A program made the translations under genes and the position numbers. This document shows positions 8,508 through 20,667 of a stretch of 21,279 nt of DNA, one piece after another (position 1 is the stretch's first letter; each line of letters begins with the position of its first letter). Under the pieces are notes generated by a model, which was not told where the DNA came from, searched no databases, and worked only from the letters and a program-made list of their open reading frames with translations. The stretch is from a virus: positions 1 to 21,279 of the IMG/VR virus record IMGVR_UViG_3300017765_000087; one strand, 5' to 3'.

Positions 8508-8690
8508 CTATTGATTTTGATATTCAAATGGTGTATAAGAATCTTTGAGTGCTTTTGAAACATTCGGTACTTTAAACGATACTTCCCACATTTTAGTTTT
8601 TGGGTTGTAGTCCATACCGCCAGTTGTATAATCCCCATAGGGGCAAGTGTTTAACCACTCATTGAATATTGTAAAAGTTGATCTTTTCAT
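8508..8690 (-). CDS. Hypothetical 60-aa protein
   Basis: Starts MKRSTFTIFNEWLNTCPYGD, with a YNPKTKMWEVSFKVP segment suggesting beta strands. ATGA overlap with the 67-aa gene upstream; stop five bases before the cassette 5 dyad. It is the third gene of the 9168-8508 run. Function not recognised. Confidence 0.63.
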   Translation of the reverse strand: MKRSTFTIFNEWLNTCPYGDYTTGGMDYNPKTKMWEVSFKVPNVSKALKDSYTPFEYQNQ

Positions 8691-8890
8691 AGGAATGACG
8701 TTAGAGCGTGTGGTCTGTTTTTTTCATACTCTACATTTTTGAGAGTATAGGGTTGAATGTAGTTTTGTACATCATCCCATAGTTCATGATCTTTTGATGT
8801 CCAACATCCGAGACCATTGTCTATCTTAAACTGGATATCGTCATCCAGTTTTTCATAAACGTCTATGTGAGTAACTAATAGCATTACCAT
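8687..8890 (-). CDS. Hypothetical 67-aa protein
   Basis: Reads MVMLLVTHIDVYEKLDDDIQ and then GLGCWTSKDHELWDDVQNYI. Two starts are possible: 8890, or Met3 at 8884, which gives a one-base TAATG overlap with the upstream gene and may be the true one. Function not recognised. Confidence 0.62.
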   Translation of the reverse strand: MVMLLVTHIDVYEKLDDDIQFKIDNGLGCWTSKDHELWDDVQNYIQPYTLKNVEYEKNRPHALTSFL

Positions 8891-9168
8891 GTACCGTCTT
8901 TGTGATCATAGTTTAGTTTGTCTAGTAGAATGTCTCTTACTCTCTCTCTGTCTAGTGAATCACCATCACCCCATGTACAAAACTCGAAATCATCGTTGTT
9001 GCACTGGTCGAGGTAGATAACTGTTGCTGTTAGAATATCAGTCTTTGTTAATGGTTGACCTTGATAAACTAAAGGGTATAAAGGGTCATTCTGACCATAG
9101 AATGAATCAACATAATCAACGAAATCATCGATTTGTCTTTTTGCTGTTACTAGGTCTGTTGGTCTCAT
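8884..9168 (-). CDS. Hypothetical 94-aa acidic protein
   Basis: Starts MRPTDLVTAKRQIDDFVDYV, helical and Asp-rich throughout, ending NYDHKDGTW. Heads the three-gene transcript from cassette 6 with leader CAACGAACATTATT before ATG. The strong negative charge resembles small phage inhibitors in general, but there is no specific match. Confidence 0.67.
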   Translation of the reverse strand: MRPTDLVTAKRQIDDFVDYVDSFYGQNDPLYPLVYQGQPLTKTDILTATVIYLDQCNNDDFEFCTWGDGDSLDRERVRDILLDKLNYDHKDGTW

Positions 9169-9193
9169 AATAATGTTCGTTGTTTGTATTCTT

Positions 9194-9252
9194 ATTATAA
9201 GGTATTTTGTACCCTATGCGTGGAAGTGTGTGACACATAATTAACTGTCACA
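9194..9252 (-). promoter_or_regulatory. Dyad-promoter cassette 6
   Basis: Dyad TGTGACA (9229-9235) / TGTCACA (9246-9252): fully symmetric 7-base arms, gap 10. TATAAT at 9194-9199, 29 bases downstream. The stop codon of the 55-aa gene upstream (9241-9243) is inside the dyad. Drives the 94-aa gene. Confidence 0.75.
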
Positions 9253-9408
9253 TATGCTATTGACTTCCACACCTCGATTGATTAAGATATCCTCTATCTT
9301 AAAAGATATTCTCATCAACTCTTCTTCAATATCGTCAGCAATATTTGGTTGCTCACAATATTTGTCTAGAGTGCGAACTATTGAGATAAGTTCATTATCA
9401 GTTAACAT
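9241..9408 (-). CDS. Hypothetical 55-aa acidic protein
   Basis: Starts MLTDNELISIVRTLDKYCEQ, helical, ends NRGVEVNSICDS; the last codons and stop are part of the cassette 6 dyad. It overlaps the zinc-binding-like gene by 7 bases. Function not recognised. Confidence 0.6.
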   Translation of the reverse strand: MLTDNELISIVRTLDKYCEQPNIADDIEEELMRISFKIEDILINRGVEVNSICDS

Positions 9409-9593
9409 TGTATGTTCTCCTCTATAAATGCATCAAGTTCTTCAGCACAATGACCACACCGCCATCCCTCTACTTCGTCTCCATAATATGCATACCTATT
9501 CACAAATCGACCTGACCCGATACTACAGTTTTTACTACAGTCCACACAAGTTTCAAGTGAGAATAAGTTTTTTGGTGTAATAACTACTTGCAT
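9402..9593 (-). CDS. Small Cys-rich, probably zinc-binding protein (63 aa)
   Basis: Cysteines at 16, 19, 23, 46, 49 and 63, with CVDC (16-19) and CGHC (46-49) giving the CxxC...CxxC arrangement of a treble-clef or zinc-ribbon finger; a 26-residue insertion (GRFVNRYAYYGDEVEGW) separates them. Such small phage fingers often bind nucleic acid or host proteins. It lies in a chain of overlapping genes from 10170 to 9241. Metal binding is inferred from spacing alone. Confidence 0.66.
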   Translation of the reverse strand: MQVVITPKNLFSLETCVDCSKNCSIGSGRFVNRYAYYGDEVEGWRCGHCAEELDAFIEENIQC

Positions 9594-9594
9594 T

Positions 9595-9771
9595 TTACGC
9601 TCCTTGATAATGTTGTGAACTAGGATGAGTTTTGACTAGGTAGTCTCCTGTTTGTATCTTTTCAAATACACTCATTTGTTTTGGTGTTAAAGGCATATCC
9701 ATATCCCTGAGTATGTCATACAGTTTAATAAACTGATATGCTTCATCGAATGTAATCTGTACATTTATCAT
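9595..9771 (-). CDS. Hypothetical 58-aa protein
   Basis: Starts MINVQITFDEAYQFIKLYDI, with DMPLTPKQMSVFEKIQTGDY in the middle. It begins at a TAATG overlap with the 71-aa gene and stops one base before the start of the Cys-rich gene, so it fills an otherwise empty gap in the operon. Function not recognised. Confidence 0.62.
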   Translation of the reverse strand: MINVQITFDEAYQFIKLYDILRDMDMPLTPKQMSVFEKIQTGDYLVKTHPSSQHYQGA

Positions 9772-9986
9772 TAATCTAACTCTCCATTGTAACGTAGTGC
9801 ATCGTCACTAAATTCCATAAGTCTATCTAAAACTTCGCCCATAGAATAGTTACGATTGATGGCATCATCCCCGAAAGCGATTTCAAAAACCTCTTCAATA
9901 AACTGTTTAGGATTCTGGACGTAACCATAATCCCATGTCTCTCCCTCTGTTCCTACTTTCCATTGTTTAAGATCGTTGTTACACAT
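9771..9986 (-). CDS. Hypothetical 71-aa acidic protein
   Basis: Starts MCNNDLKQWKVGTEGETWDY; C-terminal half is helical and acidic (GEVLDRLMEFSDDALRYNGE). One base separates it from the 60-aa gene. Function not recognised. Confidence 0.65.
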   Translation of the reverse strand: MCNNDLKQWKVGTEGETWDYGYVQNPKQFIEEVFEIAFGDDAINRNYSMGEVLDRLMEFSDDALRYNGELD

Positions 9987-12200: not shown

Positions 12201-12260
12201 AATATAAACCATATTGCAACCCGATGCAACCACTCTTGTGCCACTTATACAACTGTCACA
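12201..12260 (-). promoter_or_regulatory. Dyad-promoter cassette 10, driving the noncoding block
   Basis: Dyad TGTGCCA (12237-12243) / TGTCACA (12254-12260), gap 10; -10-like TATATT at 12201-12206, 30 bases downstream. The stop codon of the methyltransferase gene (12245-12247) lies within the dyad. Unlike the other copies, no start codon follows closely: what follows is the structured noncoding stretch. Confidence 0.62.
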
Positions 12261-13108
12261 CCTTCCTTGACATTGTATAGTAGAATCTCTCTTGCCTTCT
12301 TTGCTTCAAACTTATCATCTATTTGTTTTCTTCTCCCTGCTGTGTATGTTATGTCAAAATGTGCTACGTTTAGTTTATGGTTTTGCTTTTCAAAGAAATC
12401 ATCGTCTGCTCTGTTAGCAAGAAATACCTGTGAACATGTATCAGCATACTTTATCAACTCTATTAAATCATTATCATTAAAAGCATTGCCATAATCAGCA
12501 TAAGATGTCCTATAAGGGGGGTCGAAAAAATGGAATGCATACACCTTAGATGGGGGTGCTTTAACTTCTTTCCAGTCTTTACTTGTTATCTCTGCACCTT
12601 GCAATGCTTCACTCCACCACTTAACAATCTCTTTATCGTAAACAGTATCCTTTTGATTAAGAAGTCCACTAGGTGTACCATAGCGTCCATTAGTATTCTT
12701 ATTGATCTGATATATGCCATTGAAACCTGTTTTCATTAAGAAGTATAGTGTTGATGCTTCCTTAACTTCACTCCATCCTTTATAATCAAATGCGTGTCCA
12801 TGTCTGACCTCGAAATAATATTTCTTTCTATCTTCCTTGCTGAGTGGTATATACTTCTCTTGATATTCGTCCATGTGTTTGATAAACTGAGAATGATTAT
12901 CTCTTATCATTCTGTATATTCTCATGATGTCTGGGTTAATATCATTAATCAATACATACTTCGGTTTGTACCTTTTCATTACATATATGAACATAGCACC
13001 ACCACCGAAAAATGGTTCATGATAGTGAGTGACGTAACTAGGCAAGTAAGGTTGATAATGCTTCATCATCTTATTCTTACCACCTGCCCACATGAAAAGG
13101 GGTTTCAT
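12245..13108 (-). CDS. Dam-like DNA N6-adenine methyltransferase (D12 class)
   Basis: A 287-aa protein of typical D12/Dam length. FMWAGGKNKM (5-14) is the N-terminal AdoMet-binding segment, EPFFGGGAMF (31-40) is motif I, the FNGIYQINKNTNGRYGTP block (129-146) is typical of Dam and DpnM, and DPPY (196-199) is the catalytic motif IV of adenine methylases. Order I-then-DPPY marks the alpha class. Function: AdoMet-dependent methylation of adenine in DNA; target unknown, GATC by family resemblance only. It overlaps the upstream endonuclease-like gene by ATGA, so its likely job is to protect phage DNA from that enzyme, with protection from host restriction as an alternative. Confidence 0.92.
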   Translation of the reverse strand: MKPLFMWAGGKNKMMKHYQPYLPSYVTHYHEPFFGGGAMFIYVMKRYKPKYVLINDINPDIMRIYRMIRDNHSQFIKHMDEYQEKYIPLSKEDRKKYYFEVRHGHAFDYKGWSEVKEASTLYFLMKTGFNGIYQINKNTNGRYGTPSGLLNQKDTVYDKEIVKWWSEALQGAEITSKDWKEVKAPPSKVYAFHFFDPPYRTSYADYGNAFNDNDLIELIKYADTCSQVFLANRADDDFFEKQNHKLNVAHFDITYTAGRRKQIDDKFEAKKAREILLYNVKEGVTVV

Positions 13109-13623
13109 AATAATCCTTTAAACCAGTTTCTTAATCTTGTTTTGAACTCTTGTTCTGTCTCATTCATAGCAATGGAATATCCTCGATACTTCATTATATC
13201 ATATAATGTGCCTGTTGCACCACCACCATGTCTATTTGTATCAAACTCAAATCCCACACCACCACATGATAAAAATATCTGGTTTGGTTTTAAATCCATA
13301 TACACTTGATACTTACATGCTCTCTCACATGCATTCCTATGATCTTGTTGATATTTGTCTTCACATAATCCTACGATTTTCCCATCATAAAATATAACTC
13401 CACCATCACTATAAATTTCATTAGAGTTACCTGTCATGTGTCTAGCGTAGTTAACATTTTCTTCTCCTATTAACTCTGCAACTGTTACCATTTTTCTTTT
13501 ATCCCACTTATCATCATGACATTTAAACTCATCATATATCTCTTGGACTAGGGATATATGTTTGTTCTCATGTTTAGTTTGTTTTCCACTTGAAAAACTA
13601 TGTGTTCCTTTTTTTGCTGTCAT
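13105..13623 (-). CDS. Putative type II restriction endonuclease, EcoRI/MunI-like PD-(D/E)XK fold
   Basis: A 172-aa protein. Residues 72-105 carry SDGGVIFYDGKIVGLCEDKY followed by Q...RNACERACKY. This reproduces the core of EcoRI-like enzymes: acidic residue before two Gly (D73), a strand with E-x-K (E88, K90), a following Gln, and N-A-x-E-R (97-101), as in EcoRI's GNAIER. The basic N-terminus (about 1-22) may be an arm on DNA. It is shorter than EcoRI (277) and MunI (202). ATGA overlaps join it to the helicase upstream and the adenine methyltransferase downstream, the expected partner of a type II nuclease. Identified by motif only; a Holliday-junction or DNA-end nuclease is the alternative. 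Confidence 0.62.
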   Translation of the reverse strand: MTAKKGTHSFSSGKQTKHENKHISLVQEIYDEFKCHDDKWDKRKMVTVAELIGEENVNYARHMTGNSNEIYSDGGVIFYDGKIVGLCEDKYQQDHRNACERACKYQVYMDLKPNQIFLSCGGVGFEFDTNRHGGGATGTLYDIMKYRGYSIAMNETEQEFKTRLRNWFKGLL

Positions 13624-14873
13624 GATGCATATGCTATAGGGGGTAATCCTTCCTTGAATATGTAATCAACAATAGACTCTAGTCTTCTAGCAATCTTATC
13701 TCCATACTTGTTCTCTGTTGGTACTGTGATCTGTCCACTTGATTTCTTATAGAACTGCCAGTTACCAATAGTCAACTGACCATTAGAGATAGCGTCTCTA
13801 TCATCTTTGTGAACTCTGATAACTCTACCAATAGTTTGTGCCATTTCGATAGTTGGTAAATTTCTCAATAGTATTGTATGAGTAAGTCCATTGACATTGA
13901 TACCTTCAGATAATATACTGTAGTGAAATACAATAACCTTACGATTATTATCATTGCCAAACTTAGTAAGAGTATCAAAGAACTCTTCTCTACCTACCTT
14001 CTTTCCATTGATGATAGCACCATACTTTGATGTAATATGTAGTACATCATATCCATTATCAGATAACCAATCAAGTATGAATGTTCTTGATAACATATTG
14101 TTTAGAACTCTAGTGCTAGGACTAGCAACTAATACTTTATGTCCATTGTCTCCGAATGATGTTAACATGTCCATTAAGTTCTGTGCATCAACCTCATGTG
14201 CATTCTCTTTGTTTCTCTCTGTCTTACATGTAAAAGGAACAACTTTAGGCGGTAATATAGCACCACTATCAATAAGTTCCTGTGCTTTTACATTACATAG
14301 AGTGTTACCCCATACTTTAGTATTGTTCATACCTCTAGTTTTAGATGCACCTCTACCTAACTTAGGTGTTGCTGTAAATGCGAACCTACGATATGCTACA
14401 CCAAATGACATTCTAGCAACCGCTTCAAAGAAATTCTTTGATGTGCCATTATGTGCTTCATCATAGTAAATAGTATCAACTTCTACATCAACTGCATTAC
14501 ATACTTTGTGTAGTGAATGATATGTTGTAGAGATAATAATATTCTTTGTGCTATTGTTAACCCATTCATTCAACTCAAACTGATTAGTTGTACTGAAGTG
14601 ATGAGTCTCTCCTGAGTGAACATGAGCAATATCAAGACCAAACTTTGAGTTCTGTTCTGTGATAAACTCTGTGAACTCTGCACATAACTGGTTTGCTAGT
14701 AATATACGTGGTGCGACTACTACAATAGTTTGTGATCTTGGTAACTGAAATTGCTTCATAGCATCAGCGATCATAATATAAGTTTTACCACCACCTGTAG
14801 GAATAATGACCTGACCATATGGTGTCTCTTGCATTGCGTTAAATGCTCTTTGCTGATGGGGTCTTAACTGCAT
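13620..14873 (-). CDS. SF2 DEAH-box helicase (type III restriction Res-subunit-like)
   Basis: A 417-aa protein from Met at 14873: LRPHQQRAF (Q-like motif, 3-11), Walker A PTGGGKT (25-31), motif Ia VAPRILLANQL, DEAH (138-141), FTATP (motif III, 166-170), and QTIGRVIR (motif VI, 346-353). This is the ResIII/helicase-C layout of translocases such as UvsW and restriction-subunit helicases. A TTG-started extension to 14915 begins in the -10 box and is unlikely. UvsW-type recombination helicases are common in T4-like phages, but the ATGA link to an endonuclease and a methyltransferase suggests a role in that module, for instance as a motor or DNA remodeller. Confidence 0.88.
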   Translation of the reverse strand: MQLRPHQQRAFNAMQETPYGQVIIPTGGGKTYIMIADAMKQFQLPRSQTIVVVAPRILLANQLCAEFTEFITEQNSKFGLDIAHVHSGETHHFSTTNQFELNEWVNNSTKNIIISTTYHSLHKVCNAVDVEVDTIYYDEAHNGTSKNFFEAVARMSFGVAYRRFAFTATPKLGRGASKTRGMNNTKVWGNTLCNVKAQELIDSGAILPPKVVPFTCKTERNKENAHEVDAQNLMDMLTSFGDNGHKVLVASPSTRVLNNMLSRTFILDWLSDNGYDVLHITSKYGAIINGKKVGREEFFDTLTKFGNDNNRKVIVFHYSILSEGINVNGLTHTILLRNLPTIEMAQTIGRVIRVHKDDRDAISNGQLTIGNWQFYKKSSGQITVPTENKYGDKIARRLESIVDYIFKEGLPPIAYAS

Positions 14874-14906: not shown

Positions 14907-14964
14907 ATTATACAATAAAAAAACCCCTTTTGCAAGGGGTTGTGACAGTTTGGTAACTGGACTA
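14907..14964 (-). promoter_or_regulatory. Promoter of the helicase-nuclease-methylase operon, with degenerate dyad (cassette 11)
   Basis: TATAAT at 14907-14912. Dyad arm TGTGACA (14941-14947) is intact; the other (14958-14964, TGGACTA) is degenerate, though CAGTT-TGGT-AACTG (14946-14959) is perfect. A TTGCAA at 14930-14935 sits 17 bases from the -10 and could act as a -35; it lies in the terminator loop. Leader ends TTTTATT before the helicase ATG. Confidence 0.6.
14917..14941 (-). terminator. Intrinsic terminator before the helicase operon
   Basis: Minus strand: AACCCCTT (14934-14941) pairs with AAGGGGTT (14922-14929) around a 4-base loop, followed by seven T (14917-14923, overlapping the stem end). 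It ends the 15844-14962 transcript and sits between the dyad and the -10 box of the next promoter. Confidence 0.8.
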
Positions 14965-19145: not shown

Positions 19146-20183
19146 CTATGATACAAAAGTAGTTATGAATGCGTATCCTATTAACCATGCACACAATCCA
19201 CCTAACACTTTATAGTATTTTCTGATAGGTGTGCCAAAGTATTGCTGTCCAATCATCAAACACTTATGTGCAGGGGATAGTAGATACCCTGCGTATTCTG
19301 TTGCTAAAAACCATACGAGATATTGCTGACCAAATATCAATACAAGTGCTGATGTCATTCCTGCATACTTACCAGATGAACCCATAATCCATGCTGCTAT
19401 TGCTCCCACTATTGATACTGGTACAATCATAGTCGGGTCTGCTGACTTGAGATACACCATAACAGGTTCTTTTATCATACCTACAACACCACCTAATGCC
19501 AATACTATAGTTGCAATAATAGCAAAGTTACCATCAAGATATTTACCCCACCTCCAATCTTTACATAGGATACTATAATAACATGCCATACCTATGAACC
19601 AAGGGAAAAAGAATATAGCACCTGCCTTACCTACACACAATAAAAACCAGATCGTAGCAATAAAGGGTGCCCAACCTCGTAATGCCCTCTGCCAGTTGAA
19701 GTCTCGGATATTATCCATGTTAGGTATAACTGATCTAGGGTCAACTTTAGAAAATATATACCACCATGTATATAATAAACAGATACACAATGGCACAAAA
19801 GTATAACCTAACATTTCTCTATAAGTTATACCCAATGCTGCCATAGGCAATATAATAGTCTTTTCTAATGGACTCCACCAATAATAATGATGTGTAGATA
19901 AGTAATCAATAATACCGAATGCACTTCTCTTCTTCTTATCAGGCGGTGCTATAGCATCTAACAATGGTGCGGATAGTGCTACCCTGCCTGGGATTGGTAG
20001 TACACCACCTAAAATAGAGGTGAGAATTATCATCACCCTGTTGTCTTTAATATATCTCTTTGCAAGTGAGTAAACATCATTCAATACATGATACTCTCTA
20101 ATAAATCCACCTAAGATCATAATACCAAAGATATAACCCATGTAGAGTTCTTTCTGTGCTATTGATTCTAAAATTTTAAACAT
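19146..20183 (-). CDS. DUF401-like integral membrane protein, putative transporter
   Basis: A 345-aa polytopic membrane protein with about eight to ten hydrophobic segments. GGVLPIPGRVALSAPLLDAI (59-78) closely follows the DUF401 signature (G-x-L-P-M-P-G-G-A-x-x-S-A-P), and near the C-terminus LLSPAHKCLMIGQQYF follows the second signature L-L-S-P-V-H-x-C-L. DUF401 proteins belong with anion-permease-like transporters; no substrate is established to my knowledge. The usual PGG reads PGR here, which may change function. The family is usually about 400 aa, so this is somewhat short. It overlaps the 2OG oxygenase gene by 8 bases. Likely an auxiliary gene acquired from a host. Confidence 0.72.
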   Translation of the reverse strand: MFKILESIAQKELYMGYIFGIMILGGFIREYHVLNDVYSLAKRYIKDNRVMIILTSILGGVLPIPGRVALSAPLLDAIAPPDKKKRSAFGIIDYLSTHHYYWWSPLEKTIILPMAALGITYREMLGYTFVPLCICLLYTWWYIFSKVDPRSVIPNMDNIRDFNWQRALRGWAPFIATIWFLLCVGKAGAIFFFPWFIGMACYYSILCKDWRWGKYLDGNFAIIATIVLALGGVVGMIKEPVMVYLKSADPTMIVPVSIVGAIAAWIMGSSGKYAGMTSALVLIFGQQYLVWFLATEYAGYLLSPAHKCLMIGQQYFGTPIRKYYKVLGGLCAWLIGYAFITTFVS

Positions 20184-20667
20184 AGTTAAAGTTGATTACC
20201 ATACGAAATGATGAGTTAGTTGTTGATGTTCCTGTGTGTTTCATACCATTTGGAAATGTAACTAATCGATTAGCAACTGAGTCCACCTTAGTGCCATCTT
20301 CAAAGAGTGTGTAACCATCACAAGTATTCATATAATATATGGAAGTTTTGAGATAGTCTCTGTCTTCTGCATCTAAAACATCAATGTGCATACCATGTTC
20401 AACTAACTTATCAGTTCCCATGACAAGGTTTGCTTTGATCTTGATTATAGCACATGGTTGTAACTTCTGCAAGATAGGGTATAAAAGTTTACATGACTCA
20501 TCAGGTGTATGTCTCTCATAGAACATGTGAGTCATCTGTAGATTACGATTCTTATTTTCCTGTGTGTCATCTACAATCTTAGATGCATTCCAAGGAAAAT
20601 AACTATCCAGTAACCCATGATAGATACTCTCAAACTCTGCAAGTTTAAGGAAATTATCTGATATCAC
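20176..20667 (-). CDS. 2OG-Fe(II) oxygenase, 163 aa
   Basis: HxD at H94/D96 (EHGMHIDVLD), distal H144 (FPNGMKHTGTS) and R155 in SSFRMVINFNY form the complete 2-His-1-carboxylate plus 2-oxoglutarate-binding set. TSIYYMNTCDGYTLFEDGTK (108-127) is the usual middle strand region, where a Gly-Thr/Tyr-x-Leu/F pattern is typical. Similar small oxygenases are frequent in cyanophages; substrate unknown. ATGA overlap with the methyltransferase-like gene upstream and 8 bases overlap with the membrane protein downstream put all three in one operon. Confidence 0.88.
   Translation of the reverse strand: MISDNFLKLAEFESIYHGLLDSYFPWNASKIVDDTQENKNRNLQMTHMFYERHTPDESCKLLYPILQKLQPCAIIKIKANLVMGTDKLVEHGMHIDVLDAEDRDYLKTSIYYMNTCDGYTLFEDGTKVDSVANRLVTFPNGMKHTGTSTTNSSFRMVINFNYV

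Follow-up and report, generated by a model that had tools for sequence, protein, structure and literature searches.

A virus-borne EcoRI-family nuclease paired with a D12 adenine methylase in T4-like cyanophages, with AATT as its predicted target

EcoRI, RsrI, MunI and MluCI belong to a Type IIP family of restriction endonucleases (Pfam PF02963 is the EcoRI entry), which have a PD-(D/E)xK fold with EcoRI topology, a catalytic triad and an N-A-x-E-R loop that reads AATT; in EcoRI, N141, A142 and R145 touch the central AATT (PMC4081073). Type II nucleases "rarely occur on bacteriophages", and Chlorella viruses are lytic viruses that carry a Type II nuclease with an adenine methylase, as in the CviAII system of PBCV-1 (PMC4081073). 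The DNA considered here is a 21,279-nucleotide stretch (positions 1 to 21,279 of IMG/VR record IMGVR_UViG_3300017765_000087), called the window below. Its baseplate wedge, tail-fibre and 2OG-oxygenase genes mark it as part of a T4-like cyanophage genome (Kyanoviridae), and its best matches are metaG-MbCM1, P-RSM1 and S-TIM4. On its minus strand lie genes for a superfamily 2 (SF2) helicase, a protein of 172 amino acids (aa) and a D12-class adenine methylase, which an earlier note had read together as a restriction-modification unit with an added motor. Judged from sequence comparison, the 172-aa protein is a member of a virus-borne family of EcoRI-type restriction endonucleases. This nuclease and the methylase probably form a Type II restriction-modification pair with an EcoRI fold and the four-base target AATT, and the helicase is a neighbour. 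The lineage is unrelated to the Chlorella viruses, which infect eukaryotes; here the carriers are T4-like phages, some of them with the site purged and no methylase found.

The nuclease has one library match, phrog_2400 (function unknown; E 4e-5), and no family was matched in scans of Pfam, NCBIfam and PADLOC. The resemblance to EcoRI emerges from its relatives. D73, G74, G75, E88, K90, Q92, N97, A98 and R101 are invariant across 21 aligned relatives, and most of these residues are still kept in a wider set. D73, E88 and K90 (21/21 relatives) are the PD...ExK catalytic residues of EcoRI-type endonucleases, and their EcoRI counterparts are taken to be D91, E111 and K113. The recognition loop follows the pattern N-A-x-[E/Q]-R, being NACER in the window, NAIER in the wide set and NACQR only in locus L044. 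Searched against the PDB, a profile of the wide family picks out EcoRI (E 1.5e-7), and no other match rises above noise. The narrow family profile reaches EcoRI at E 0.28 only, so that the wide profile alone is significant, and a single-sequence PDB search with the nuclease returned chance matches only. The EcoRI/MunI-type active site proposed in the earlier note is borne out by the conserved D73/E88-x-K90/NAxER pattern and by the wide profile.

The structural comparison with EcoRI is clear for a relative and weak for the window protein itself. The model of relative L040 (predicted local distance difference test, pLDDT, 77) aligns with EcoRI at Z 14.0 and a root-mean-square deviation of 2.9 over 154/181 residues, the next unrelated match having Z 9.2. 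Foldseek alone put unrelated folds first for this model, and re-alignment with VIA-align 2 brought out EcoRI. For the model of the window nuclease the first four Foldseek matches are EcoRI chains, all of them weak. Three points weigh against the assignment to the EcoRI family: the window nuclease models poorly (pLDDT 61), its top VIA matches are mostly restriction-endonuclease-like folds at Z of only 5-7, and the L044 loop carries Q where the others have Glu (NACQR vs NACER). Because its own model is of low confidence, the fold of the window nuclease is assigned through its relatives. The Pfam EcoRI model, with a gathering cut-off of 22 bits, does not match the window nuclease and scores L040 and L030 at 13.9 and 12.1 bits, both below the cut-off. 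The phage enzymes also differ from EcoRI in length (160-200 aa against 277) and in that the phage genomes point to a 4-bp site and not one of 6 bp. L044 is the closest relative, and its nuclease (L044:4486-5004), with NACQR at the position of EcoRI Glu144, is diverging far faster than the L044 helicase or methylase.

The methylase resembles DpnM and Dam in fold and motifs. It matches MethyltransfD12 (PF02086, E 4e-32), passes the Dam family model TIGR00571 (139.8 bits against a cut-off of 114.85) and has DpnM as its nearest solved structure (E 2e-23). E. coli Dam recognises the outer G:C pairs of GATC through Lys9 and Arg124. The window methylase has Met6 and Gln134 in their place, and in 22/22 methylases paired with the nuclease Lys9 is replaced by M, I or V and Arg124 by Q, the FNG motif and DPPY being kept. 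Because both of these residues are replaced, the paired methylases are unlikely to be GATC methylases, and they are predicted to protect AATT instead. The label Dam-like, given in the earlier note, holds for the fold only and not for the target, since the GATC-reading residues are replaced in every paired methylase and the genomes point to AATT. The paired type is also separate from the general D12 gene of cyanophages: S-RIM2 and S-BM1 have two D12 genes each, one adjoining the nuclease and orthologous to that of the window, and one general, which lies near regA in S-RIM2 and also occurs in the nuclease-free S-TIM4 and P-RSM1. S-CREM2 gp11 belongs to the same nuclease family, but the D12 methylase of this phage keeps Lys9, is of another subtype and is not adjacent to the nuclease.

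Over GenBank and IMG/VR, relatives of the nuclease were counted in at least 72 distinct loci, and in 56 of the 72 the nuclease is linked to a methylase gene. The two genes overlap by 4 bp in 25 loci, lie within 150 bp of each other in 14, have a single gene or roughly 1 kb between them in 16 and are fused in one (L127, 472 aa). There is no linked paired methylase in the other 16, of which three leave no room for one; one of the 16, L144, overlaps by the same 4 bp with an adenine methylase of the MT-A70 type, and another (L132, on G006) has a paired-type methylase elsewhere in its genome. No paired-type methylase was found in helicase loci without the nuclease, and of 80 helicase-centred loci just two, both of them the window phage itself, were found to have this subtype. 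Such linkage supports the restriction-modification pair suspected in the earlier note. In locus L001 a 351-aa protein (L001:6471-7526; phrog_2558, with a weak ParB-like/DUF6551 match) lies between nuclease and methylase; it has homologues of 33-59% identity in L017, L029, L031, L033, L092, L098, L100 and L105 and is missing from some S-RIM2 isolates.

AATT was tested as the target word because N141, A142 and R145 of EcoRI contact it. AATT is the most depleted 4-mer palindrome of S-RIM2 by z-score (249 seen vs 795 expected), and the window has 52 where 126 are expected. Because all NAATTN contexts are depleted in S-RIM2 (observed/expected 0.18-0.50), a 4-bp site is favoured over a 6-bp one. The six-base targets GAATTC and CAATTG were rejected, as neither shows depletion beyond that of AATT, and so was GATC, which is avoided to the same degree in carriers and non-carriers (p 0.82). 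In a deduplicated set of 118 loci, each 6 kb or longer, AATT has a median observed/expected ratio of 0.37 where nuclease and methylase are both present (n=39), 0.52 where no methylase is linked to the nuclease (n=12), and 0.87 where there is no nuclease (n=67). The nuclease-methylase loci differ from the nuclease-free ones with p=4e-14 in a Mann-Whitney test, which ignores relatedness. None of the other fifteen 4-mer palindromes is depleted alongside AATT; only CCGG differs clearly, being less depleted in carriers. On a tree of 88 helicases AATT lies below 0.60 in 20/22 carriers vs 2/66 non-carriers, a threshold chosen after the distribution had been seen, so that the rank test is the cleaner of the two apart from its blindness to relatedness. 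Of the phylogenetically independent pairs, 8.4 show AATT depletion in the carrier and none the opposite (sign test p about 0.008).

Avoidance of AATT could instead be due to restriction systems of the hosts, the nuclease having another role or target and the association arising from shared hosts. P-RSM1 (AATT 0.55) and L233 (0.48) are AATT-poor without a detected nuclease, and CCGG is absent from many cyanomyoviruses whatever their nuclease, so that something else can purge sites too. Both observations favour the host explanation and weigh against AATT as the target of the nuclease. Some carriers, mostly distant (L149, L155, L125), have nearly normal AATT, which also weighs against that target. 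However, depletion follows the gain and loss of the nuclease among close relatives on the helicase tree, as the independent pairs indicate, the nuclease belongs to a family whose loop reads AATT, and AATT is totally purged from carriers in which no methylase was found. Host restriction is thus considered an improbable source of the pattern, and an EcoRI-type pair acting on AATT is clearly preferred. For the nuclease this target is suggested by the loop and by genome avoidance; the methylase is known only to lack the GATC-reading residues.

CAATTG is seen 0 times where 60 are expected in the whole genome of P-RSM1 (NC_021071), which may reflect a host enzyme similar to MunI or the loss of a pair. 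CCGG is absent, with or without the AATT nuclease, from the genomes of S-RIM2 (0 seen, 144 expected), S-TIM4 and P-RSM1 and from contigs G001, G003, G004 and G006; it is not absent from S-CREM2. By analogy, CCGG may be the target of some other site-specific nuclease, encoded by phage or host.

In one clade, which includes IMG/VR records 3300021960_000030 and 3300033273_000208, no partner of the nuclease was found. Contigs G003, G004 and G005 (112, 74 and 90 kb) carry the nuclease, and neither a D12 nor an N6_N4 methylase was found in them; the search for MT-A70 methylases lacked a positive control. AATT is completely absent from the parts of these contigs that were read (0/299 expected in 100 kb, 0/195 in 60 kb and 0/177 in 60 kb), where the other A/T 4-mers occur by the hundred. 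G003 and G005 represent one strain. Because G004 differs from G003 by 14% (86% identity), the absence of AATT is maintained and is no accident of inheritance. Between G003 and G004 the ratio of nonsynonymous to synonymous substitution rates (dN/dS) is 0.10 for the nuclease and 0.09 for the core helicase. Because the solo nuclease would be unable to cut its own genome and yet is strongly constrained, it must be useful against other DNA. The contigs are incomplete, which weighs against this reading of the clade, as the rest of them may hold a methylase. On balance, these data tip towards two interchangeable immunities to an offensive restriction enzyme in a family of lytic phages, methylation of AATT or deletion of every AATT, the latter being a "sequence-encoded antidote" that is kept over 14% nucleotide divergence and would be a new kind of self-protection; the enzyme itself would be a missing host-DNA-degrading nuclease of cyanomyoviruses. 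The clade would be an example of a restriction pair giving way to a nuclease on its own in a genome cleared of its sites.

The same clade bears on the possibility that the pair is a selfish restriction-modification module, which spreads by addiction and is of no benefit to the phage. Such a module would fit the patchy occurrence of the nuclease, for which the tree implies 10-12 gains or losses, and the mobile-looking extra gene between nuclease and methylase in some loci. Addiction is, however, impossible in an AATT-free clade, where the nuclease is nevertheless constrained like the core helicase, and a purely selfish module is therefore quite unlikely.

Family membership, pairing, AATT avoidance and selection are each supported by sequence, and the following course of infection would fit them. 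The nuclease would cleave unmodified AATT, and the D12 methylase would mark the adenine in AATT on phage DNA, the phage's own genome being imperfectly protected. Imperfect protection and selection against sites would then lead to AATT-poor carrier genomes, and in the clade with no methylase found and AATT purged, protection would be written into the sequence. The pair would be expressed early and the host chromosome broken down early in infection; unmodified DNA of rival phages would be a secondary target. Degradation of host DNA is the accepted role of restriction-modification in Chlorella viruses. Cyanomyoviruses are without denA, ndd and denB, and an undescribed way of degrading host DNA has been suggested for them (PMC2984593). 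Because these genes are missing and because nuclease-free relatives show no extra avoidance of AATT, the host chromosome is probably, by a modest preference, the main foreign DNA target.

The same AATT pair could serve mainly for superinfection exclusion, cutting unmarked rival phage DNA with host DNA as an incidental target. Pairing with a methylase is what a system that distinguishes self from non-self needs, and Chlorella viruses likewise encode Type II nucleases and methylases (PMC4081073). However, nuclease-free relatives, which plausibly share hosts with the carriers, have AATT at 0.87, compared with 0.87 for TTAA and 0.89 for ATAT, and so bear no mark of pressure on rivals, and host DNA presumably has the same unmethylated sites. 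Exclusion as the main role is accordingly given as a possible but distinctly weaker reading than attack on the host chromosome. The earlier note had offered both host takeover and superinfection exclusion, and both are plausible roles. The nuclease would be a candidate answer to how cyanomyoviruses degrade host DNA without denA, denB and ndd, and its target, readable from the phages' own genomes, is testable in cultured S-RIM2 on Synechococcus WH7803. Matching genomic word avoidance with phage nucleases would also be a general method for finding their targets.

The helicase has ResIII, DEAD and Helicase_C domains, in agreement with the SF2 helicase of the earlier note. It is the cyanomyovirus core gene T4-GC_36 and occurs in 418 phage records, almost all of which bear cyanophage names, whereas the nuclease is present in about 65. 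In S-RIM2 and S-BM1 the gene order is nuclease-methylase-helicase, with the helicase downstream of the methylase, and no helicase was found in the examined flanks of distant nuclease-methylase pairs. Because the helicase is widespread without the nuclease, takes a different place in S-RIM2 and S-BM1 and was not found beside distant pairs, it is, on this comparative evidence, a neighbour and not a subunit or component of the restriction-modification unit. A three-gene system with its own DNA-translocating motor would draw on the ATGA overlap of helicase and nuclease, seen in the window, L044, L093 and L140, and on the ResIII type of the helicase. The overlap occurs in these 4 loci only, the nuclease accompanies the helicase in only about 65/418 records, and EcoRI-type enzymes cut without an ATP motor. 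Such a system is thus very improbable, and the added motor of the earlier note is not upheld. In S-BM1 the gene after the helicase (L002:8529-8936), in the same hotspot, encodes a small nuclease-like protein with a weak PD-(D/E)XK match (PF11645, E 0.001).

The overlapping arrangement itself is confirmed, all three genes lying on the minus strand with both junctions ATGA (Table 1). A hairpin and a promoter-like site just upstream of the helicase ATG would make the three genes one operon, and the helicase is probably co-transcribed with the nuclease and methylase. A longer reading of the helicase from a TTG start, to 14915, would overlap the promoter-like site. Values of dN/dS are 0.08 for the helicase, 0.37 for the nuclease and 0.17 for the methylase; because purifying selection acts on all three, they are regarded as real genes. 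The same trio is identical in two IMG/VR contigs and diverged in a third, L044, which is 93% identical to the window in the helicase, 62% in the nuclease and 88% in the methylase.

Table 1 Features of the helicase-nuclease-methylase locus (window coordinates)
Feature	Position	Strand	Basis
SF2 helicase, 417 aa from ATG	13620-14873	minus	PF04851/PF00270/PF00271 (ResIII/DEAD/Helicase_C)
EcoRI-family restriction endonuclease, 172 aa, predicted target AATT	13105-13623	minus	conserved residues, family profile, relative's model, AATT depletion
D12-class N6-adenine DNA methyltransferase, 287 aa, predicted protector of AATT not GATC	12245-13108	minus	PF02086, TIGR00571
Catalytic codons D73 (13407-13405), E88 (13362-13360), K90 (13356-13354)	13354-13407	minus	invariant in two family alignments
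NACER loop, residues 97-101, equivalent to EcoRI N141-A142-I143-E144-R145	13321-13335	minus	alignments
ATGA overlap of nuclease stop and methylase start, read as translational coupling	13105-13108	minus	sequence
ATGA overlap of helicase stop and nuclease start	13620-13623	minus	only 4 loci: window, L044, L093, L140
Sigma-70-like promoter TTGCAA-17-TATAAT, ~34 bases upstream of helicase ATG	14907-14935	minus	consensus scan only
Intrinsic terminator-like hairpin AACCCCTTGCAAAAGGGGTT + T-run, putative end of upstream transcription unit	14922-14941	minus	consensus match only

A virus-borne EcoRI family is thus found spread through T4-like cyanophages. Relatives of the nuclease occur in S-RIM2 (SWUG_00041; >60 isolates) and S-BM1, labelled "hypothetical protein" in both, where the genes are annotated in the order "hypothetical protein / DNA adenine methylase / helicase". 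S-CREM2 gp11 (OR473000) carries the label "restriction endonuclease EcoRI" and shares 68% identity with the S-RIM2 protein; the S-CREM2 paper does not discuss it. The trio had been thought undescribed in T4-like marine phages; the same neighbours are in fact on record in more than 60 S-RIM2 and S-BM1 entries and gp11 bears the EcoRI label, but no description of the nuclease-methylase pair was found in the open-access literature. No relatives were found in plasmids, and none in about 85,000 prokaryote genomes by two short-pattern scans, which divergent relatives could escape.

Several other genes were noted in passing. The protein encoded at 20176-20667 of the window has the PHROG label DNA endonuclease V and a weak Pfam match to 2OG-Fe(II) oxygenase, so the DenV label may be wrong. 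In S-CREM2, gp12 and gp6 (L009:3305-5914 and 8537-9781), labelled CRISPR Cas9 and SAM hydrolase, look like low-complexity virion proteins. A 345-aa protein with a DUF401 match (phrog_14035), unusual for a cyanophage, is encoded at 19146-20183 of the window and lies in the same place in metaG-MbCM1.

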